From contig NZ_JAUSSH010000001.1 of the NCBI RefSeq assembly GCF_030812255.1, forward strand, positions 124,001 through 188,000: a stretch of DNA of 64,000 nt, read 5' to 3'. The translations under genes and the position numbers were made by a program. The notes beneath the pieces were generated by a model, which did no database searches, was not told the origin of the DNA, and saw nothing but the letters and a program-made list of their open reading frames with translations. This stretch comes from Paeniglutamicibacter psychrophenolicus (GTDB taxonomy: Bacteria > Actinomycetota > Actinomycetes > Actinomycetales > Micrococcaceae). This document shows, in pieces, positions 33,295-61,243 of the stretch (the first letter of the stretch is position 1; each line of letters opens with the position of its first letter).

Positions 33295-33356
33295 CGCGGG
33301 GTTTCACGCGGGAGCCTTGACTGTAAGCCGCACCACAAATAGCATACAGGGCAACG

Positions 33357-33367
33357 GTTGTTTCATA
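33357..33367 (+). promoter_or_regulatory. GTTGTTTCATA element upstream of the ureohydrolase gene
   Basis: GTTGTTTCATA lies 59 bases before the GTG start. It is flanked by GTTG...CAAC arms at 33357-33376. It matches GTTGTCTCATA in the symporter/XRE-cupin gap at 28611-28621 in 10 of 11 bases. A TTGACT about 40 bases upstream could be the -35 box. Confidence 0.35.
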
Positions 33368-33426
33368 TTGAGCAACAAGACGTGGTCGGCGGTGGGTACC
33401 GCCGGAAACCCCTGAGGGAGAAGATC

Positions 33427-34419
33427 GTGGAAGAAATCCGCATTGAAGACAACGGAAACATCGGTCCCATCGATGCCTCCAAGATTCCGCGCTTCGCCGG
33501 ACTGGGGACCTATGCCAGGCTCCCCCGCATCGACCAGGTGCCCTCCGCGGACATCAAGGTGGTCGGGGTGCCGTTTGACTCGGGGGTTTCCTACCGGCCC
33601 GGCGCGCGGTTCGGATCCACCCACATCCGCGAGTCCTCGCGACTGATCCGCCCGTACAACCCGGCCCTGAATGTCTCGCCGTTCGCGCTGACCCAGGTCG
33701 CCGACGCCGGGGACATGGCGGTGAACCCGTTCAACATCAACGAAGCCATCGAGACCATCCAGCAGAACGCGCTGGACCTCACCGCCGACGGCTCCACCCT
33801 GGTGACCCTGGGCGGGGACCACACCATCGCCCTGCCGCTGTTGCGCGCCGCCGCCGAACGCGCGGGAAACCCCGTGGCCATGCTGCACTTCGACGCGCAC
33901 CTGGACACCTGGGACACCTACTTCGGCGCCGAATACACCCACGGCACCCCCTTCCGCCGCGCCGTGGAGGAAGGCATCCTCGACACCGAGGCCATCTCCC
34001 ACGTGGGCACCCGTGGCCCGCTCTACGGCAAGAAGGACCTCGAGGACGACAAGCGCTTCGGCTTCGGCATCGTCACCAGCTCGGATGTCTACTACCAGGG
34101 CGTGCGTGAGATCGTGGACAAGCTCCGCGACCGCATCGGCAACCGCCCGCTGTACATCTCGGTGGACATCGACGTGCTGGACCCGGCCCACGCGCCGGGC
34201 ACCGGAACCCCCGAGGCCGGCGGCATCACCAGCCGCGAACTGCTGGAGATCCTCCGCGGGCTGCGCGGCATGAACATCGTTGGCGCCGACATCGTCGAGG
34301 TCGCCCCGGCCTACGACCATGCCGAAATGACCGGCGTTGCGGCATCGCACGTCGCCTACGACCTGATCTCGCTGATCGCGGACAAGCGCGCCAACGACAA
34401 GAAAGCGGCCCAGGCATGA
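33427..34419 (+). CDS. Ureohydrolase: guanidinobutyrase or agmatinase
   Basis: The 330-residue arginase-fold enzyme has all Mn-site motifs: [21 protein letters not shown] and [19 protein letters not shown]. The start is a GTG at 33427 with GGGAG upstream. The family hydrolyses guanidino groups to urea. Agmatinases and guanidinobutyrases look alike. The next gene, overlapping by four bases, encodes an AruI-like thiamine-diphosphate enzyme, which favours 4-guanidinobutyrate as substrate, giving 4-aminobutyrate and urea. That assignment is from context. Confidence 0.9.
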
Positions 34420-50419: not shown

Positions 50420-51103
50420 ATGGCCTCGATCTTTGAGCTTGCCCTTGGGCAGGATTTTGGGCGGTTGCACCCCATGCTCCGGAAGCGTTTTGGTGTGGAC
50501 ACGTCGGCAGGGTACGCCTGCATTGGGCAGGGCGTCTTTTCCGAAGTTCGGCGCGGCGCCTGGTGGACCAGGCCGTTCCTGCGCCTGGGTTCGTATCGAA
50601 ACATCTTGTTTCCCGGGCAGGGACGGCACATCCCCTTCACCATAGAGAACTACCCGTACACCGACGGACTCGGTCGCCCAACCGTCACCTTCGTGCGCAC
50701 CCTGGAACTCCCGCGCGCCAGGAAGCACCGTTTCGATGCGACCATGGTGCACAGTGCGCAACGCGGTGGGATCGTCGATTACCTGGGAACGCGCCAGCAC
50801 CTGGCCACCGATCTCCAGCTGGAGGTCCTGGACGATGGAACGCTCCACCTCCGAACGGGTGCCCTCCGCTTCTATGAAGGTCCGCTGGCGTTCACGGTTC
50901 CCGCAATCTTCACCGGAACCGCGGATCTGTATGAAGGCTATGACGACGAGCGCGGGGTGTTCACGGTGCGGATGCAGGTGGCAAACCCTGTATTTGGATT
51001 CCTCTTCGGGTACCGGGGCGAGTTCTCCTGCACCTTTCCGCCAATTTCTGACGTCGGTGTCCCGGCAGACCTCAAGCCGCTCAGGGAAGAGATCCGGGAA
51101 TAG
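50420..51103 (+). CDS. DUF4166 family protein
   Basis: The 227-residue protein has features of DUF4166: an N-terminal LGQDFGRLHPMLRKRFGVD, then FPGQGRHIPFTIENYPYTDGLGRPTV, and [31 protein letters not shown] precedes the ATG. DUF4166 proteins are often found next to SRPBCC or saccharopine-reductase-like proteins. Its partner here is the gene just upstream. No reaction is known. Confidence 0.85.
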   Translation: MASIFELALGQDFGRLHPMLRKRFGVDTSAGYACIGQGVFSEVRRGAWWTRPFLRLGSYRNILFPGQGRHIPFTIENYPYTDGLGRPTVTFVRTLELPRARKHRFDATMVHSAQRGGIVDYLGTRQHLATDLQLEVLDDGTLHLRTGALRFYEGPLAFTVPAIFTGTADLYEGYDDERGVFTVRMQVANPVFGFLFGYRGEFSCTFPPISDVGVPADLKPLREEIRE

Positions 51104-53559: not shown

Positions 53560-53588
53560 TTGACAGTGACCGGGGACACAAATAGAGT
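53560..53588 (+). promoter_or_regulatory. Promoter of the MHS transporter gene
   Basis: TTGACA (53560-53565), a 17-base spacer starting GTGA, and TAGAGT (53583-53588). The same TTGAC(A/T)-GTGA start and 17-base spacing occur before the creatininase and creatinase genes. Confidence 0.75.
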
Positions 53589-53591
53589 CGG

Positions 53592-53617
53592 TGCAACAGT
53601 GTTGCAATCAATGCAAC
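53592..53617 (+). promoter_or_regulatory. Three-half-site IclR operator, copy 1
   Basis: TGCAAC-AGT-GTTGCA-ATCAA-TGCAAC, directly after the -10 box. The first and second half-sites form one dyad and the second and third form another. A bound repressor would cover the transcription start. Confidence 0.8.
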
Positions 53618-53642
53618 GTCAAAAAATCTTGGTGGTTCCCAA

Positions 53643-55043
53643 ATGATTCAGCGCAACAACTCCGCGAACGGCAATGGCGCCAACGCACGTTCTGCAACGA
53701 GCACGCTCACCGACCTCCCGCCTTCCGGCCTTGGCCCGACGCTCAGTGGCCAGGAGCGTCCCGACCCGGATGGGATCGGCAAAAAGACCCGACGCAAGGT
53801 GGTTGCCGCAAGTTTTATCGGCAACTTCGTGGAGTGGTTTGACTACGCCGTCTACGGCTACCTCGCAGTCACCATCACCGCAGTTTTCTTCCCCGAGTCC
53901 GATCCGACGACCGGCTTGATGCTCACCTTCGCGCTCTTTGCCGTTTCGTTCTTCGTTCGCCCCTTGGGCGGTTTCGTTTGGGGCCATATCGGAGACAGGG
54001 TTGGGCGTCGCGAGGCACTCTCGTGGTCGATCCTGATCATGTCCGCGGCAACCTTCTGCATAGCCTTGATCCCTTCGTATAACACCATCGGCATCTGGGC
54101 GCCGATCCTGCTGCTGATCATCCGCGTTGTCCAGGGCTTCTCCGCCTCCGGCGAATACGCCGGCGCTTCGGCTTTCCTGGTGGAGTATGCGCCGGCCAAC
54201 CGTCGCGGACTCTACGCCGCCGTTGTCCCGGCCAGCACGGCCACCGGCCTGCTGCTCGGTTCCCTGATGGCAGGGCTGCTTACCGGACTGCTGGAACCAG
54301 CGGCCATGGAATCCTGGGGGTGGCGCCTTCCGTTCCTGCTGGCTGCACCCATGGGCCTGATCGGCCGCTATATCCGCACCAAGCTCGAAGACTCTCCCGT
54401 CTTCGCCGAACTTGCCAAGGAAGACGAGGCGGTCAAGGCCCCGGTGAGCTCATTGTTCAAGAACCACTGGCGCCAGCTCATCCAGGCCGTCGGCGCGGTG
54501 CTGCTCAACGCCGTGGGCTTCTATCTGATCCTCAGCTACATGCCCACCCACCTGCACGAAAACATCGGAATCTCACAGTCCGCCGCCTACGTCGCGACCA
54601 CGGTGGCCTTGACCACCTACATCGGCTTCATCTTCCTCATGGGGCTGCTTTCGGACCGGTTGGGCCGCAAGAAGGTGCTGATGACCGCCTCGATCCTCTT
54701 CGTGGTACTCACCGTGCCGGCCTTCCTGCTGCTGGAAACCGGCAATTTCCTGATCATCGTGCTGGTGCAGGTCCTGCTCGGCGCAATGCTCAGCCTCAAT
54801 GACGGCACGCTGCCCAGCTACCTGGCTGAAATGTTCCCGACACGGGTTCGCTACTCCGGCTTTGCCGTGAGCTTCAACCTGTCCAATGCACTGTTCGGGG
54901 GCACCGCGCCATTCGTGGCGACCGTCCTGATTGCCACCTCGGGCAGTGTGCTGGCGCCCGGCTGGTACCTCATGGGTGCCGCGGTCATTGCCCTGGTTGC
55001 CGTAGCCTGCTCGGTGGAGACCAGCAAAAAACCATTGGCCTGA
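53643..55043 (+). CDS. MHS-type major facilitator transporter, creatinine regulon
   Basis: The 466-residue, 12-helix transporter belongs to the metabolite:H+ symporter group (ProP/KgtP-like): GNFVEWFDYAVYGYLA after a 45-residue polar N-terminus, then VRPLGGFVWGHIGDRVGRREAL between helices 2 and 3, and LLSDRLGRKKVLM in the second half. The promoter and operator match those of creatininase and creatinase exactly in layout, so creatinine or creatine is the probable cargo. The substrate is inferred from regulation only. Confidence 0.9.
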   Translation: MIQRNNSANGNGANARSATSTLTDLPPSGLGPTLSGQERPDPDGIGKKTRRKVVAASFIGNFVEWFDYAVYGYLAVTITAVFFPESDPTTGLMLTFALFAVSFFVRPLGGFVWGHIGDRVGRREALSWSILIMSAATFCIALIPSYNTIGIWAPILLLIIRVVQGFSASGEYAGASAFLVEYAPANRRGLYAAVVPASTATGLLLGSLMAGLLTGLLEPAAMESWGWRLPFLLAAPMGLIGRYIRTKLEDSPVFAELAKEDEAVKAPVSSLFKNHWRQLIQAVGAVLLNAVGFYLILSYMPTHLHENIGISQSAAYVATTVALTTYIGFIFLMGLLSDRLGRKKVLMTASILFVVLTVPAFLLLETGNFLIIVLVQVLLGAMLSLNDGTLPSYLAEMFPTRVRYSGFAVSFNLSNALFGGTAPFVATVLIATSGSVLAPGWYLMGAAVIALVAVACSVETSKKPLA

Positions 55044-55125
55044 GGCCGGGCTGTTGTTACCGTGATGTCGGCCATGGCCCGGTGGGGATCCACCCTCCGG
55101 TCTGCTTCATCTTGGCCGGCCACGG

Positions 55126-55185
55126 TTGACTGTGAACTGAATCACTGAAAGTATGCCGTTGCAACAAGGTTGCAATGAACGCAAC
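55126..55185 (+). promoter_or_regulatory. Creatininase promoter with three-half-site IclR operator, copy 2
   Basis: TTGACT (55126-55131), a 17-base spacer beginning GTGA, and AAGTAT (55149-55154). The operator TGCAAC-AAG-GTTGCA-ATGAA-CGCAAC follows at 55160-55185. The last half-site has one mismatch. Confidence 0.78.
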
Positions 55186-55264
55186 ACTTTTCCATTCGCT
55201 GGAATCCTGGCCGATCCACCGAAGTCCCAACGTGCCTGTCCGCTGTCCAACCTAGGAGACGACG

Positions 55265-56065
55265 ATGACCTCAGTTTTTCTTGAAGACCTTGACGCAGAG
55301 ACCTACGCCGCCATTGTGGCGAAGGAGGGATCGACCGTCATTATCCCGACCGGCGCCACCGAGCAGCACGGTCCGCACATGCCCTTGGGCGTGGATGCAA
55401 TGCTCTCGAAGGCCATCGCCGGGGTGGTCGCCGAGCGGACCGGCGCGGTCGTTGCCCCGGTCTTTGCCTACGGGTACAAATCCCAGCCGCGTTCGGGTGG
55501 CGGCAACCACCGGGTCGGCACCACCTCTCTGGGTGCCGCGTCGCTGACCGGGATGGTTGACGATGTGGTTTCCTCGTTCCTGGGCCAGGGCTTTTCGCAT
55601 GTGGTGGTCCTCAACGGCCACTTCGAGAACTACCAGTTCATCTACGAGGGACTGGACAACGCAGTCTCCCGTGCCCGCGACCGTGCCGCCGGCGCAAATT
55701 CGCGTGCGGTGCTGCTTTCCTACTGGGACTTCGTTGACGAGGCCACATTGGAGCAGGTCTTCCCCGAGGGATTCCTGGGCTGGGACATTGAACATGGAGG
55801 GGTGCTGGAAACCTCACTGATGCTGCTGCTCCACCCGGAGAAGGTGGACATGTCCCGCGTCGTGGACCACCCGCCGGCCAAGCTGACCCCGTATGACATT
55901 TTTCCCGAGGACCCGGCGCGGACACCGGCCAGCGGGTGCCTCTCCAGCGCAATGGGCGCGAGTGCGGAACGTGGACAGCTGCTGCTCGATGCGGTGACCA
56001 CCCAGGTCGCCGCCGCCCTGGAGGGCGAACTGCCGCTCGGAAAAACCACCCTGGAGGTGTCTTAG
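55265..56065 (+). CDS. crnA: Creatininase (creatinine amidohydrolase)
   Basis: The 266-residue enzyme keeps the metal and catalytic residues of characterised creatininase at almost the same numbers: Glu33, His35 (TEQHGPH), Asp44, His119 and Glu121 (NGHFENYQF). It opens creatinine to creatine reversibly using two divalent metals. MftE-type mycofactocin peptidases share the fold. The creatinase downstream and the length favour true creatininase. The gene is first in an operon with the BCCT transporter, whose start lies one base after its stop. Confidence 0.92.
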   Translation: MTSVFLEDLDAETYAAIVAKEGSTVIIPTGATEQHGPHMPLGVDAMLSKAIAGVVAERTGAVVAPVFAYGYKSQPRSGGGNHRVGTTSLGAASLTGMVDDVVSSFLGQGFSHVVVLNGHFENYQFIYEGLDNAVSRARDRAAGANSRAVLLSYWDFVDEATLEQVFPEGFLGWDIEHGGVLETSLMLLLHPEKVDMSRVVDHPPAKLTPYDIFPEDPARTPASGCLSSAMGASAERGQLLLDAVTTQVAAALEGELPLGKTTLEVS

Positions 56066-56066
56066 C

Positions 56067-57818
56067 ATGACCATGGACAAGACAAAGCAGGAGTCCCCAC
56101 GACATACCAAGCCCGGATCCGCCGACAAGGCCAAGGCCCCGGTGGAGGTTCCGCGCTTCGTCGGGCTGCATATCCCGCCCATTGACCGATTGCTGATCCG
56201 CATCATTCCACCGGTGCTGATCGTTGCGGTCATGATCTGGGTGCTGACCAACCCGGTCGGGGCGGCGGCAGTGATCTCCGAGATGCGCACCTTCGTCACT
56301 GGCCGGTTCACCTGGCTGTTCATCCTGTACTCGGCCTTCACCGTGGTGGTGTGCATCTGGCTTGCCTCCAGCAAGGTGGGCAAGATCCGCCTGGGCGGAC
56401 CCAGTGCGAAGCCGCAACACAGCAAGTTCGCGTGGTATTCGATGCTCTTTGCCTGTGGGCAGGGCATCGGCCTGATCTTCTGGTCGGTCGCCGAACCGAT
56501 CATGCTGCGGGATGAAAACCCGGTCATCCCGGCCGGACCCAGCGGGGGTGCAGAGGGCGCCATCGTGTGGACCTATTTCCACTGGGGCCTGACCGCCTGG
56601 GCAATGTACTGCGTGGTGGCCGTGTGCCTGGCATATTCCCACCACAATCTGGGCAAGACCCTCACCTTCCGTGAAGCCACCGTCGATATCCTCCCGCGCT
56701 GGTCGCGCCGCGGTGCCGGCGTGGTTGTTGAACTGCTCGCCATCATCGCCACGGTGCTTGGCCTGGCCACCTCCTTCGGGTTTGCGGCCATGCAGTTCTC
56801 TTCGGGCCTCACCTCCTTTACCGGCATCGTGGCCAGCCCGGTGATGTGGTTCATGGTCATCCTGGTCTTCGCGGGCATCACCTCGATCTCGGCCATCGTC
56901 GGCATCAACAAGGGCATGGCCCGGATCAGCAGCGTGAACTCGATCCTGAGCATCGTGCTGGTCGGTGCCGTGCTGATCTTCGGCCCGACGCTGTTCATCA
57001 TCTCGAACTTGTCCCAGACCTTCGGCAGCTTCATGGCGAACTTCGTGGACATGAGCATGTGGACGGATTCGGGGCTAGCCGCCACGACGCTGGAGAGCTG
57101 GCAGGACAGCTGGAACGGCTGGTGGACGGTGTTCATCTGGTGCTGGGTCATTGCCTTCTCACCGTTTGTCGCCGGCTTCATTGCACGCATTTCCCGTGGA
57201 CGCACCATCCGCGAGTTCGTCCTGGGCGTGACCGTCATCCCCACCCTGATCGTCATGGTCTGGGTTGCGGTGATTGGATCGGCCGCCATCTACTACGACG
57301 ACAAGTCCGACCGCGGAATCAGTGCAGCGGTGGCGGCGGACACGTCTGCCGGCCTGTTTGCGATGCTGGACGCCGTTCCGGTGGTCGGCACCATCCTGTT
57401 GGTGGTGGCCACCATCCTGGTCGCCACCTACTACGTGACCTCGCTGGACTCGGGCATCTATGCGCTGAGCGAGTTCGTCTCGGCGCCGCACAAGTCCGGG
57501 CCGGTCTTCCGCGTGGTGCTGGTGCTTTCGGTGGGTACGGTCACCACCGTGCTGCTGACGCTAGGCGGGACCGCGGTGGTGGACACCGTGCAAACCGGCA
57601 CCATTATCGGGGCCTTCCCGTTCTCCTTCGTGATCATCCTGATGATCGTGAACCTAATCCGTCGCCTGCTCAAGCGCGACAAGGCCATCAGGCGGATGGA
57701 GAAGGACATCAACAACCCGGATCCGTCCCTGGTCATCGTGCCCGACCCGCGCGGGGAAGGAGCCATCCGCATGGCCTCGGTCGACGCGGACCCGGAGGAC
57801 CTGACGCTCCGGGAGTAG
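56067..57818 (+). CDS. BCCT-family transporter
   Basis: The 583-residue, 12-helix transporter belongs to the betaine/carnitine/choline family, with the signature region in helix 8 (WNGWWTVFIWCWVIAFSPFVAGFIARISRGRT, split here for length: Trp-rich first half, FVAGFIARISRGRT second half). The N-terminus is polar and lysine-rich and the C-terminus acidic. It is translated after creatininase with GGAGGTG inside the creatininase end. BCCT members carry quaternary or zwitterionic amines, so creatine is a reasonable cargo. The MHS protein may be for creatinine. A perfect terminator follows. Confidence 0.92.
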   Translation: MTMDKTKQESPRHTKPGSADKAKAPVEVPRFVGLHIPPIDRLLIRIIPPVLIVAVMIWVLTNPVGAAAVISEMRTFVTGRFTWLFILYSAFTVVVCIWLASSKVGKIRLGGPSAKPQHSKFAWYSMLFACGQGIGLIFWSVAEPIMLRDENPVIPAGPSGGAEGAIVWTYFHWGLTAWAMYCVVAVCLAYSHHNLGKTLTFREATVDILPRWSRRGAGVVVELLAIIATVLGLATSFGFAAMQFSSGLTSFTGIVASPVMWFMVILVFAGITSISAIVGINKGMARISSVNSILSIVLVGAVLIFGPTLFIISNLSQTFGSFMANFVDMSMWTDSGLAATTLESWQDSWNGWWTVFIWCWVIAFSPFVAGFIARISRGRTIREFVLGVTVIPTLIVMVWVAVIGSAAIYYDDKSDRGISAAVAADTSAGLFAMLDAVPVVGTILLVVATILVATYYVTSLDSGIYALSEFVSAPHKSGPVFRVVLVLSVGTVTTVLLTLGGTAVVDTVQTGTIIGAFPFSFVIILMIVNLIRRLLKRDKAIRRMEKDINNPDPSLVIVPDPRGEGAIRMASVDADPEDLTLRE

Positions 57819-57832
57819 AACCCCAGGCGGCC

Positions 57833-57875
57833 AAGGCCGTGCCATCCGCAATCTTGTTGCGGATGGCACGGCCTT
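57833..57875 (+). terminator. Terminator after creatininase-BCCT operon
   Basis: AAGGCCGTGCCATCCGCAA pairs perfectly with TTGCGGATGGCACGGCCTT around TCTTG, a 19-bp stem followed by a short T-rich stretch. Confidence 0.9.
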
Positions 57876-57975
57876 TCTGTGTCGCGACACTGCACGAAAG
57901 GCCAGGGAAAATAGCTTCCCCGCGACGGAATGGAGGGCGTGCGGTGGAAAGTTTTAGGTGACCGGCGAAACGCAC

Positions 57976-58033
57976 TTGACAGTGAGGTGAGACACACATA
58001 TTCTGAGTGCAACGGCGTTGCAGTGAATGCAAC
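57976..58033 (+). promoter_or_regulatory. Creatinase promoter with three-half-site IclR operator, copy 3
   Basis: TTGACA (57976-57981), a 17-base spacer beginning GTGA, and TATTCT (57999-58004). The operator TGCAAC-GGC-GTTGCA-GTGAA-TGCAAC follows at 58008-58033. The gap between -10 and operator is three bases, the same as at the transporter promoter. Confidence 0.8.
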
Positions 58034-58131
58034 TTACCGAAAATTTCTCCGGCGGTTCCCAAGAATCCACGCAATCCTTTGGATTGGGCCGGTCTCCATT
58101 GCCACCTGATTACTTCTGAGGAGCCAATATC

Positions 58132-59388
58132 ATGACCACCACCGCGAACAGCGCAACCAACGTTTCCGAGCTCGAGCGCCTGAAGACCCTGCACAACGGC
58201 ACCAAGCAGCAGCTGACCTTCTCGGACGCCGAGTTCGAGCGCCGCCTGGCCGGCCTGCGCAAGATCATGGCCGCCAAGGAACTGGACGCGGTCATCCTGA
58301 CCAGCTACCACGGCATCAAGTACTACTCGGACTTCCTCTACACCACCTTCGGGCGCAACTACGCGCTGGTGGTCACCGCCGACAGCTCGACCACCATCAC
58401 CGCGAACATCGACGCCGGCATGCCGTGGCGCACCAGCTACGGCGACAACATCGTCTACACCGACTGGAAGCGCGACAACTTCTACTACGGCCTGCAGGAG
58501 GCCCTGAAGCGCAACGGCGTGAAGGCAACCCGCATCGGCGTCGAGGACGACGCCCTGGCCCTGTTCACCCGCCAGGCCATCGCCGCCACCTTCGACGGCG
58601 CCACCCTGGTGGATGTCTCGCAGGACGCCATGCGCCAGCGCATGATCAAGTCCGCGGAGGAGATCGAGGTCATCAAGCACGGTGCACGCATCGGCGACCT
58701 CGGCGGCGAGGCCATCAAGGCCGCGATCCGCGAGGGCATCACCGAGTACGAGGTCGCCCTGATCGGCACCGAGGCCATGGTCCACGAGATCGCCAAGACC
58801 TTCCCGCACCGCGAGGTCCGCGACACCTGGGTCTGGTTCCAGTCCGGGATCAACACCGACGGCGCCCACAACTGGGCCACCACCCGCAAGCTTCAGCGCG
58901 GGGACATCCTCTCGCTGAACTGCTTCCCAATGACCTCGGGCTACTACACCGCCCTGGAGCGCACCCTGTTCCTCGGCGAGCCGGACGCCCGCTCGCTGCA
59001 GGTGTGGAACGCGAACGTCGAGGTGCACAAGCGCGGCCTGGAACTGATCAAGCCCGGCGCGGTCTGCAAGGACATCGCCGCGGAACTCAACGAGATCTTC
59101 ATCGGCCACGGCCTGCTGCCCAACCGCACCTTCGGCTACGGCCACTCCTTCGGCGTCCTGTCGCACTACTACGGCCGCGAGGCCGGCCTGGAGCTGCGCG
59201 AGGACATCGACACGGTGCTGGAGCCGGGCATGGTGGTCTCCATGGAACCGATGGTCACCGTCCTTGACGGCGAGCCGGGTGCCGGTGGCTACCGCGAGCA
59301 CGACATCCTGGTGATCGGCGAGGACGGCGGGGTGGAGAACATCACCAAGTTCGGCTTCGGCCCGGAGAACAACATCATCGACGCCTAG
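58132..59388 (+). CDS. Creatinase (creatine amidinohydrolase)
   Basis: The 418-residue enzyme has the pita-bread fold. Its sequence follows characterised creatinases closely: SGINTDGAHN with catalytic His246, then FPMTSGYYTALERTLF, SFGYGHSFGVLSHYYGREAG, and MVVSMEPM with the conserved Glu. It hydrolyses creatine to sarcosine and urea without metal, unlike related Xaa-Pro peptidases. Sarcosine then enters the sox operon 11 kb away. It has its own promoter and operator and a hairpin terminator. The very strong preference for C/G-ending codons suggests high expression. Confidence 0.96.
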   Translation: MTTTANSATNVSELERLKTLHNGTKQQLTFSDAEFERRLAGLRKIMAAKELDAVILTSYHGIKYYSDFLYTTFGRNYALVVTADSSTTITANIDAGMPWRTSYGDNIVYTDWKRDNFYYGLQEALKRNGVKATRIGVEDDALALFTRQAIAATFDGATLVDVSQDAMRQRMIKSAEEIEVIKHGARIGDLGGEAIKAAIREGITEYEVALIGTEAMVHEIAKTFPHREVRDTWVWFQSGINTDGAHNWATTRKLQRGDILSLNCFPMTSGYYTALERTLFLGEPDARSLQVWNANVEVHKRGLELIKPGAVCKDIAAELNEIFIGHGLLPNRTFGYGHSFGVLSHYYGREAGLELREDIDTVLEPGMVVSMEPMVTVLDGEPGAGGYREHDILVIGEDGGVENITKFGFGPENNIIDA

Positions 59389-59496: not shown

Positions 59497-59973
59497 ATGA
59501 CCCTTCACGAACACGACCGCGCCGGATATGCCACCGCCCTTGGGCAAGCCCGTCTGGGTGCCGGGGAAGGCGGAGTGCCCATTGGCTCGAGCCTCTTCGA
59601 AAACGGCGTGATGCTGGGGGCCGGCCGCAACCGTCGCGTGCAAAACGGGGATCCGACTGCGCACGGGGAAATCGACGCGCTGCGCAATGCCGGGCGCCGG
59701 ACCTCCTACGCCGGGACCACCCTGTACTCCACGCTGGCGCCCTGCGCCCTGTGCACCGGAGCGATCATCCTCTTTGGCATCCGGCGCGTGGTGGTCGGGG
59801 AGGAGAAGAACTTCCCCGGGGAATTCGAGCTGCTTCGGTCCCGCGGGGTGGAGGTCGTGGTCATCGACGATCCGAAGGCCACCGCACTGATGGAAGACTT
59901 CGCCACCCGGAATCCGGAACTCTGGAACGAAGACATCGGCGTCGACCAGGCACAGTCCGACCCGAGGCAGTAG
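59497..59973 (+). CDS. Fcy1-type cytosine/creatinine deaminase homologue
   Basis: The 158-residue zinc deaminase has His56-Gly-Glu58 and the Cys83-xx-Cys86 pair (APCALCTGAI). It resembles yeast cytosine deaminase Fcy1, which is also 158 residues, more than it resembles bacterial tRNA or guanine deaminases: TLYSTLAPC, CTGAIILFGIRRVVVGE, VEVVVIDD, and the C-terminal NPELWNEDIG. HGE rather than HAE at the zinc site is also an Fcy1 trait. Some cytosine deaminases also convert creatinine to N-methylhydantoin, so in this cluster creatinine or a creatinine-like ring is a plausible substrate. Cytosine is the default alternative. Confidence 0.85.
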   Translation: MTLHEHDRAGYATALGQARLGAGEGGVPIGSSLFENGVMLGAGRNRRVQNGDPTAHGEIDALRNAGRRTSYAGTTLYSTLAPCALCTGAIILFGIRRVVVGEEKNFPGEFELLRSRGVEVVVIDDPKATALMEDFATRNPELWNEDIGVDQAQSDPRQ

Positions 59974-60024: not shown

Positions 60025-60816
60025 ATGGTTGCCCAAGTGACCGACACCGCCGTCGAACCCCGCGGGGCCTCGGTGATTGTCAATGTCATCGACGTGTTGC
60101 GCTGCTTCACCGTGGAGCAGCCGGTGGTGGGCGTGACCGAAATCGCGGCGCGGGTGGGGCTGCATAAATCCAGCGTCTCGCGCATCCTGGCCACCCTGGA
60201 GCAGGAACGCATCGTCGCCCGCGATGAGACCACGCGCAAGTACTCACTGGGACTGGGGCTCATCGCCGTGGCCGGGCCGCTGCTGGCCAACCTCGACGTG
60301 CGCCGGGTGTCCTTCCCCTTCCTGGAGGAGCTGGCCCGGGAAACCGGGGAAACCGCGGTGCTGACCATCTGGGACGGGCTCGAATCCGTCTCGGTCGAAC
60401 AAATCCCCAGCTTCCACCAGGTCAAGCACACCTCGGCCATGGGCAGCCGCTACAACACCGCGCTCAGCGCCTCGATGCAGGTCTTTTTGGCCCACGAGCA
60501 ACCGGGGCGCGCCGCAGCGCTGCTGGAATCCGGGACGGTGGTGCTGCCGGAGAACACCGCCGCTGCCCGCAGCGCCTACCTCAAACGCCTCGAAGCGGTG
60601 GGCCGGCGCGGATACGCGGCCAACCACGGGGAGACCTCGCCGGACGAAGTCGGCGTGGCCGCACCGGTCTTCGACCACCGCGGCGCGGTGGTCGCCAGCG
60701 CCATGATCGCCGCCCCGTACTACCGCGTCACCGAGGAACAACTCCACCAGCTCGGTGCCGCCTGCGTGCGCGCAGCGCGGCAAATCAGCCTTCGCCTGGG
60801 ATCCCCGGCAATCTAG
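60025..60816 (+). CDS. IclR-family regulator, probable repressor of the creatinine regulon
   Basis: The 263-residue IclR protein has the winged helix SVIVNVIDVLRCFTVEQP through LHKSSVSRILATLEQE (about residues 16-62) and an effector domain at 80-255. The start is the ATG at 60025 with GGAGG upstream. A GTG at 59983 is less likely. It lies at the end of the creatinine genes. IclR proteins bind palindromes of GTTGCA/TGCAAC type, which matches the three-half-site operators before the MHS, creatininase and creatinase genes. No copy is seen before iclR itself. Confidence 0.9.
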   Translation: MVAQVTDTAVEPRGASVIVNVIDVLRCFTVEQPVVGVTEIAARVGLHKSSVSRILATLEQERIVARDETTRKYSLGLGLIAVAGPLLANLDVRRVSFPFLEELARETGETAVLTIWDGLESVSVEQIPSFHQVKHTSAMGSRYNTALSASMQVFLAHEQPGRAAALLESGTVVLPENTAAARSAYLKRLEAVGRRGYAANHGETSPDEVGVAAPVFDHRGAVVASAMIAAPYYRVTEEQLHQLGAACVRAARQISLRLGSPAI

Positions 60817-60832
60817 CGAACAGGAACCCGGC

Positions 60833-61243
60833 ATGTTTGAAGCACGCGGCGCACACACCTTCGACTATTCGCTCCACGAGGGCAGCCCAACGCGCATGCA
60901 GTTCCATTTTGCCGATTCCATGGCCATGCCCGTGGCCATCCAGACCTGGGAGCTTGACCCCGGCGGCCATGAGGGCATGCACTCCCACGACCCGGACACC
61001 ATGGCGCTTGAGGAGTTCTACCTGGTGCTCCAGGGCACCGCGCAGATGCAGGTCGGGGCGGAACACCACCAGCTGCGCGCCGGGGACAGCGTCCTGGCCC
61101 CGGCCGGTGTGGAGCACGATCTGCGCAACACCGGGGACGGCGTGCTGCGCGTGCTGGTGGTCTGGGGCGAGGCCGGGCACAAGGACTTCTCCTCGTTCGG
61201 TTCCCTGGCCGCGGCCCTTGCTGCCCGCGGCCGGAAGCCCTGA
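60833..61243 (+). CDS. Cupin-domain protein
   Basis: The 136-residue protein has a single cupin barrel. The first metal motif is GMHSHDPDTMALEEFYLVLQG (split: GMHSHD and EEFYLVLQG), and the second is PAGVEHDLRN. Possible metal ligands are His, His, Glu and His. It follows iclR by 16 bases and may be co-transcribed. The function is unknown. It could be a small isomerase or a storage/sensing protein. Confidence 0.8.
   Translation: MFEARGAHTFDYSLHEGSPTRMQFHFADSMAMPVAIQTWELDPGGHEGMHSHDPDTMALEEFYLVLQGTAQMQVGAEHHQLRAGDSVLAPAGVEHDLRNTGDGVLRVLVVWGEAGHKDFSSFGSLAAALAARGRKP

Follow-up and report, generated by a model that had tools for sequence, protein, structure and literature searches.

We analysed a stretch of 64,000 nucleotides from Paeniglutamicibacter psychrophenolicus (contig NZ_JAUSSH010000001.1, positions 124,001 to 188,000; called the window below). 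It carries an island of genes for the use of creatinine and creatine together with a gene for an IclR-family regulator. Three promoters of this island, located upstream of an MHS-family transporter gene, the creatininase gene and the creatinase gene, share one layout, and each is followed by an array of three short boxes. These arrays are most likely the operators of the neighbouring IclR protein. Table 1 gives an overview of the features. The MHS assignment is based on the best NCBIfam matches, all of which are below the NCBIfam cut-offs. The creatininase gene and the adjoining BCCT transporter gene are likely to be on one transcript. The regulator matches both PF09339 (HTH_IclR; 51.7 bits, gathering threshold 22) and PF01614 (IclR_C; 105.5 bits, gathering threshold 24), and a solved structure (3OBF, E 1e-52) exists for the effector domain of a close relative. 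Its closest named relatives are from Arthrobacter sp. C2, Arthrobacter sp. AQ5-05 and Paeniglutamicibacter species.

Table 1 Genes, promoters and sequence elements of the creatinine/creatine island (positions within the window)
Feature	Position	Strand	Remarks
MHS transporter promoter	53560..53588	+	-35 TTGACA 53560-53565, -10 TAGAGT 53583-53588, 17-bp spacer, array 3 bases on
CRP/GlxR-like dyad GTGA-N7-CAC	53566..53579	+	GTGACCGGGGACAC; inside MHS promoter spacer
Three-box array	53592..53617	+	TGCAAC AGT GTTGCA ATCAA TGCAAC; before MHS transporter gene
MHS-family transporter	53643..55043	+	putative creatinine/creatine permease; substrate inferred from neighbours
Creatininase promoter	55126..55154	+	-35 TTGACT, -10 AAGTAT (weak), 17-bp spacer, array 5 bases on
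CRP/GlxR-like dyad	55132..55145	+	GTGAACTGAATCAC; inside creatininase promoter spacer
Three-box array	55160..55185	+	TGCAAC AAG GTTGCA ATGAA CGCAAC; before creatininase
Creatininase	55265..56065	+	TIGR04448, 340 bits (cut-off 235)
BCCT-family transporter	56067..57818	+	PF02028; starts 1 nt past creatininase stop codon
Creatinase promoter	57976..58004	+	-35 TTGACA, -10 TATTCT, 17-bp spacer, array 3 bases on
CRP/GlxR-like dyad	57982..57995	+	GTGAGGTGAGACAC; inside creatinase promoter spacer
Three-box array	58008..58033	+	TGCAAC GGC GTTGCA GTGAA TGCAAC; before creatinase
Leader block, 46 nt	58047..58092	+	CTCCGGC...GGGCCGG; conserved in creatinase leaders of two genera
Creatinase (creatine amidinohydrolase)	58132..59388	+	1CHM, E 6e-164
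Deaminase-family gene	59497-59973
IclR-family regulator	60025..60816	+	likely reader of the arrays; alternative GTG start 59983
Short gene	60834-61243		no Pfam match at E 0.001; more genes beyond

All three arrays match the pattern TGCAAC-N3-GTTGCA-N5-YGCAAC without a mismatch, and the common layout of the three promoters, described in an earlier sequence-only reading, could be read directly from the DNA. Allowing up to three mismatches, the window holds five places where 0.12 are expected, a number reached by no shuffle. Besides the three arrays, they comprise the array at 55160 read as its mirror image and an unrelated place with two mismatches at 50737. The shuffles and a reversed-pattern control rule out chance or base composition as the origin of the arrays. 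Boxes 1 and 2 are inverted with 3 bp between them (TGCAAC-N3-GTTGCA) at all three sites and in relatives, while boxes 2 and 3 are inverted as GTT-11-AAC (GTT GCAN5TGC AAC). The array thus consists of two overlapping inverted repeats with centres 10 bp apart, and boxes 1 and 3 are direct repeats at a distance of 20 bp, two turns apart on one face of the DNA. In the whole genome (4.57 Mb in 35 contigs) the perfect core GCAAC-N3-GTTGC-N7-GCAAC occurs four times (reversed control 0), and the fourth copy precedes an N-carbamoylsarcosine amidohydrolase gene. One more array, deviating at one base, precedes a second copy of the MHS gene (G000:C9:161796). This second creatinase locus, an MHS copy plus creatinase (99% identical), is situated at a contig end (L172). 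An 81% identical IclR is encoded at the end of another contig (C10, L048), and the two ends are possibly one locus split by the assembly.

Since the genomes are related, the following counts are not independent events; the loci other than the window were chosen via iclR or array hits. Homologs of the IclR protein (E ≤ 1e-30, which includes more distant paralogs) were found in 94 of the 197 family genomes searched. The perfect array core and an IclR homolog occur together in 86 of these genomes, IclR without the core in 8, the core without IclR in one and neither in 102 (Fisher p 4e-45, an optimistic value since the genomes are related), and the reversed core is present in 0 of 197. Around the hits 60 stretches were fetched. 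Creatinase is encoded in 59 of them, the exception being a contig end of the own genome, and the array core was detected in 58 with at most one mismatch and in 56 perfectly; the two stretches without are this contig end and one more stretch cut by a contig end. These data support the proposal of the sequence-only reading that the genes form one regulon with an IclR-type operator. In a wider sample of the order, the core is present in 21 of 297 genomes (reversed control one genome). All 12 core-bearing genomes outside the family were fetched, and 11 carry creatinase and IclR genes near the array. Among 80 named loci creatinase was found in 76 and an array with at most one mismatch in 75. Each of the five named loci lacking an array (L223, L229, L247, L277, L289) begins at a contig end no more than 2.3 kb upstream of iclR. 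One of them, L229, nevertheless covers some 1.2 kb of sequence upstream of its creatinase match. The arrays extend to Amycolatopsis and Geodermatophilus and are present at orthologous creatinase promoters of the relatives, a point on which the sequence-only reading had made its case depend. Two loci from Streptomyces and one from Actinomadura (L272, L273, L276) hold just one-mismatch arrays in reverse orientation, before MHS genes beside creatinase and IclR.

A total of 125 distinct perfect arrays was collected, of which 59 precede MHS genes, 30 creatinase, 9 creatininase, 9 BCCT transporter and 13 N-carbamoylsarcosine hydrolase genes, while 5 are unassigned; many species have more than one array per genome. 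So that sites were not selected through all three boxes, the third box was evaluated in 302 upstream regions of 101 loci, where every perfect left dyad GCAAC-N3-GTTGC was taken and the third box was sought on either side. Among 128 distinct left dyads it is perfect in 117, has one mismatch in 6 and is lacking in 5, so that 123 of 128 have it with at most one mismatch. In whole loci a perfect third box is found at offset 7 in 124 cases and at all other offsets together in 4. An orientation-free recount showed that most sites seeming to have two boxes were divergent promoters read as mirror images. In a set of 75 non-redundant sites that had been selected through the full array, the five-base core carries 1.8-2.0 bits in each box and the edge base is more variable. 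According to these counts all three half-sites are conserved and kept by selection.

Conservation of three boxes does not by itself tell how they are bound. The protein could bind only the palindrome formed by boxes 2 and 3 (GTT-11-AAC with a T.A centre), with box 1 as an accessory contact or a remnant. Indeed, a palindromic centre (T in 51 and A in 61 of 75 sites) is seen for dyad 2-3 and not for dyad 1-2, and operators of the HmgR/PcaU type consist of a palindrome with an external half-site (PMC8222616). Nevertheless, box 1 is conserved like boxes 2 and 3 in the sites selected by all three boxes, and when only a perfect dyad 2-3 is required (135 sites), box 1 is perfect in 112, has one mismatch in 18 and two or more in 5. 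We consider binding to a single palindrome a serious although unlikely alternative. In the reading that we prefer, all three boxes would be used. Since the two dyads share box 2, two dimers cannot occupy both palindromes at once. The array may be bound by a single tetramer, with three of the four DNA-binding domains in contact with the boxes, or by dimers in two alternative positions.

The sequence-only reading had taken an array of three half-sites as unusual. This is not supported, as Suvorova and Gelfand (2021; PMC8222616), in a survey of 181 groups, have predicted sites with three boxes that alternate in direction for 32 orthologous groups of IclR proteins (199 proteins). According to the text of that survey, such sites contain one box pair in each of two arrangements, alternative dimerisation was already inferred with a call for experiments, and PcaU, PobR and HmgR are cited as earlier three-box cases. 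The arrays described here resemble these sites in that boxes 1-2 have the group 2 spacing (TGRAAC-N3/4-GTTYCA), boxes 2-3 correspond to the group 1 subtype GTT-11-AAC, and an iclR gene is nearby. They differ from them in the core, which is GTTGC/GCAAC instead of GTTYC/GRAAC and thus one base off; the published consensus averages many proteins, and deviating motifs are listed in Table 1 of that survey. A general preference of IclR proteins for GTTGCA/TGCAAC palindromes, as assumed before, is too broad a statement, since the family consensuses GKTYCRYW3-4RYGRAMC and TGRAACAN1-2TGTTYCA (PMC8222616) are equal in spacing and partly different in their letters. With the operators of PcaU, PobR and HmgR the arrays share the combination of a palindrome and an external direct half-site, the third box being needed for PcaU binding (cited in PMC8222616), but the letters are different, and those regulators control aromatic pathways. 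Thus, the design with three boxes is of a kind known before. The regulon found here serves creatinine and creatine use, a pathway that is not named in the main text of the survey, where the string 'creatin' is absent (PMC8222616). In Corynebacterium glutamicum ATCC 14067 creatine and creatinine genes (crnA, cshA, hyuB and transporters) are under control of AmtR, a TetR-family protein with CTAT-N6-ATAG sites, in contrast to the IclR-type arrays of this study, and the accessible text of that report mentions IclR 0 times (PMC8864220). Control of corresponding genes consequently differs between lineages. No paper on creatinase together with IclR was found in the open-licence literature, which leaves most subscription journals outside.

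In the window the array begins 3 to 5 bases past a -10-like hexamer at all three promoters. Among 83 non-redundant promoters, 54 have a -10 element of the form TANNNT and 29 have none by this rule, and the distance from the -10 to the array is 2-3 nt in 51 of the 54, in agreement with the place that the sequence-only reading had given. That reading had also noted GTGA at the start of the spacer, which is present but is only one half of a conserved dyad, GTGA-N7-CAC. This dyad lies between -35 and -10 in 69 of the 83 promoters, which were anchored on their arrays (no more than 2 in any of 500 mononucleotide shuffles). With any other distance between the two arms the count stays at 18 of 83 or lower, and the seven inner bases vary. 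Divided by the class of the gene that follows, the dyad is found at 46 of 59 MHS, 27 of 30 creatinase, 9 of 9 creatininase and 9 of 9 BCCT promoters (91 of 107), at 1 of the 5 unassigned arrays and at 0 of 13 N-carbamoylsarcosine hydrolase promoters.

Read as GTGA-N6-nCAC, the dyad has the spacing of CRP/GlxR sites (TGTGA-N6-TCACA), but it differs from these in that the right-hand T is not conserved and in its location inside the -35/-10 spacer. The genome encodes a GlxR/CRP-like protein (C15) matching 3D0S (CRP/FNR family; E 2e-78) and 3R6S (E 2e-72), which we take to be M. tuberculosis CRP and C. glutamicum GlxR, respectively. TGTGA-N6-TCACA palindromes with at most one mismatch occur 70 times in the genome compared to 10 for the control. 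The GlxR/CRP-like protein is the most likely reader of the dyad. A promoter with the dyad in its spacer and without an IclR array is found elsewhere in the genome (TTGACAGTGACTCAGGCCAC at G000:C2:86860, L171:4861-4880, with a -10-like TACAGT). The gene behind it has hydroxypyruvate isomerase as best NCBIfam match (214 bits, under the cut-off of 353), and glyoxylate carboligase (1062 bits, cut-off 791) is encoded downstream. Furthermore, a promoter of like style was detected in the window (TTGACTGTAAGCCGCACCACAAATAGCAT, 33317-33345); its spacer dyad deviates at one base, and it has no three-box array of the same spacing. It precedes an arginase-family gene whose best named match is agmatinase (open reading frame 33358-34419). 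Alternatively, the dyad could be a part of the promoter itself, for example a sigma-factor preference, and not a regulator site, since in most cases it overlaps one and the same promoter place. Its arms are, however, spaced exactly around seven variable bases, the 13 N-carbamoylsarcosine promoters do without it, and the module also stands before the glyoxylate-pathway operon, where no array is present, which makes a mere promoter element improbable.

The perfect array core outside the creatinase loci directly precedes a gene whose protein matches N-carbamoylsarcosine amidohydrolase (1NBA, E 2e-174). A fused hydantoinase A/B gene (PF01968, PF02538) and a gene for an IclR paralog (40% identity) are located nearby. 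These are the genes of the parallel creatinine route via N-methylhydantoin and N-carbamoylsarcosine. The csh and hyu genes have been tied to this route (PMC8864220). Ten further loci, chosen by their arrays and all fetched, encode N-carbamoylsarcosine hydrolase, hydantoinase and an IclR of the paralogous group in 10 of 10 cases. The geometry of the arrays is the same for both routes, and the differences lie in the edge bases of the boxes. All 13 distinct arrays before N-carbamoylsarcosine hydrolase genes have A, T, A, whereas the 107 arrays of the creatinase class have T/C (103), A/G (98) and T/C (102), and a final T in box 2 never occurs among them. In the set from named species a final T in box 2 is found in 3 of 97 arrays, one from an N-carbamoylsarcosine locus and two from creatinase loci of Amycolatopsis (L267) and Geodermatophilus (L296), and the latter two weaken the idea of an absolute edge-base code. 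In a tree of 75 IclR rows (midpoint root; the program warns of long branches) the proteins of the N-carbamoylsarcosine route form one cluster of 11 (9 labelled, 2 unlabelled) with support 97/89. The two rows that carry labels of both routes represent proteins of the creatinase type, encoded next to both loci.

The recognition helix has H47, K48, S49, S52 and R53 in each of the 77 creatinase-side and 15 N-carbamoylsarcosine-side sequences compared, with S or T at position 50 and mostly V at position 51. These invariant residues match the conserved core of the arrays. The majority residue differs between the two sides (>70% on each) at positions 13, 14, 16, 17, 18, 26, 27, 57, 61, 65 and 71. As a tentative and rather less probable extension of our reading, two paralogous IclR proteins would divide the two creatinine routes by an edge-base operator code (mostly T/C, A/G, T/C versus A, T, A) that is read outside the recognition helix, with R13/G, R26/E and R71/G as candidates; each array would be bound by an asymmetric tetramer or, alternatively, by either of two dimers that have the middle box in common, and a CRP/GlxR protein dependent on cAMP would add the carbon status from its site in the spacer. 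By eye, promoters of N-carbamoylsarcosine hydrolase genes (L170:8218-8261, L190-L199) have in common an element resembling CTCTGGCGCTGGGC, followed by a -10 similar to TATAGT; this element takes the place of TTGAC and of the GTGA-N7-CAC dyad. The space that separates the hydantoinase from the N-carbamoylsarcosine genes (L170:7638-7675) contains a CRP-like TGTGATTCGGCTCACG adjoining GCAAC/GTTGC boxes in another arrangement that lacks the 3-bp gap.

In the model that we infer, including its transcription start, binding, repression, inducer, number of bound monomers and spacer-dyad protein, the winged helix of IclR would read the core GCAAC/GTTGC. The inducer-free protein would cover about -5 to +21 and thereby block the MHS, creatininase-BCCT and creatinase promoters. 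Usual promoter geometry gives this range and a dyad centre at about -23, so that a protein bound at either element would block the polymerase; repression by covering the promoter start is most likely. In the simplest case creatinine, creatine or a breakdown product would bind to the C-terminal domain and release the protein, leading to induction. A second, global input, the carbon status, could be added by the GlxR/CRP-like protein at GTGA-N7-CAC, and the paralogous IclR would run the hydantoinase/N-carbamoylsarcosine route through arrays of equal geometry with different edge bases. That the arrays are operators of the IclR protein encoded at 60025, which would block the three promoters, with a second input via the spacer dyad and a paralogous IclR on the parallel route, is highly probable as a whole.

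Several observations weigh against this model. Eight of the 94 IclR-bearing genomes lack a perfect array, and the three of them inspected (L207-L209) show none or just sites with one mismatch. One genome (G078) has an array and no IclR hit, and one array (G018, L184) lies in a locus without creatinine genes. Three conserved boxes do not imply three bound monomers. The dyad is found at only 58 of 97 perfect arrays in the set from named species, and the right-hand T of TGTGA-N6-TCACA is present in just 17 of 69 dyads, which makes the CRP/GlxR assignment uncertain. GlxR is furthermore described as mostly an activator (PMC4254451), which fits poorly to a site between -35 and -10 unless its role there is repressive.

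The arrays themselves could also activate transcription and not repress it. PcaU, which needs its third box, is an activator acting from upstream sites. Activators are usually placed upstream of -35, but the arrays lie past the -10, within 2-3 nt of it in most promoters with a recognisable -10, where a bound protein would clash with the polymerase. Although activation is known for some IclR proteins (PMC8222616), we regard it as quite improbable here. That another regulator reads the arrays and iclR is a mere neighbour is extremely improbable; the array-bearing genome without an IclR hit and the derivation of IclR binding from sequence leave some room for it, but it is opposed by the co-occurrence in the family genomes, by the paralogous iclR accompanying arrays of equal geometry in N-carbamoylsarcosine loci and by box spacings that exactly fit the published IclR geometry.

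Apart from the operators, the creatinase leader contains a conserved block of 46 nt, a candidate leader RNA. An exact match to its first 22 nt is present in 11 of 197 family genomes, from two genera, always in the creatinase leader, and 11 more genomes hold a place with two mismatches. The block can be folded as a three-way junction in which all 15 pairs hold in 8 sequences. In these 8 sequences no pair has both sides changed, a single-sequence fold of the leader is no better than shuffles (z -0.35), and no known RNA family was matched in Rfam.

Creatininase and creatinase are the enzymes used in clinical creatinine assays, which makes the regulator a candidate biosensor part. For the IclR family, the regulon offers 125 distinct natural perfect arrays of one spacing, and the paralogous protein-operator pair with different edge bases provides a built-in control. 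Both bear on a question left by the 2021 census, namely whether two alternative dimerisation modes are the basis of three-box sites (PMC8222616).

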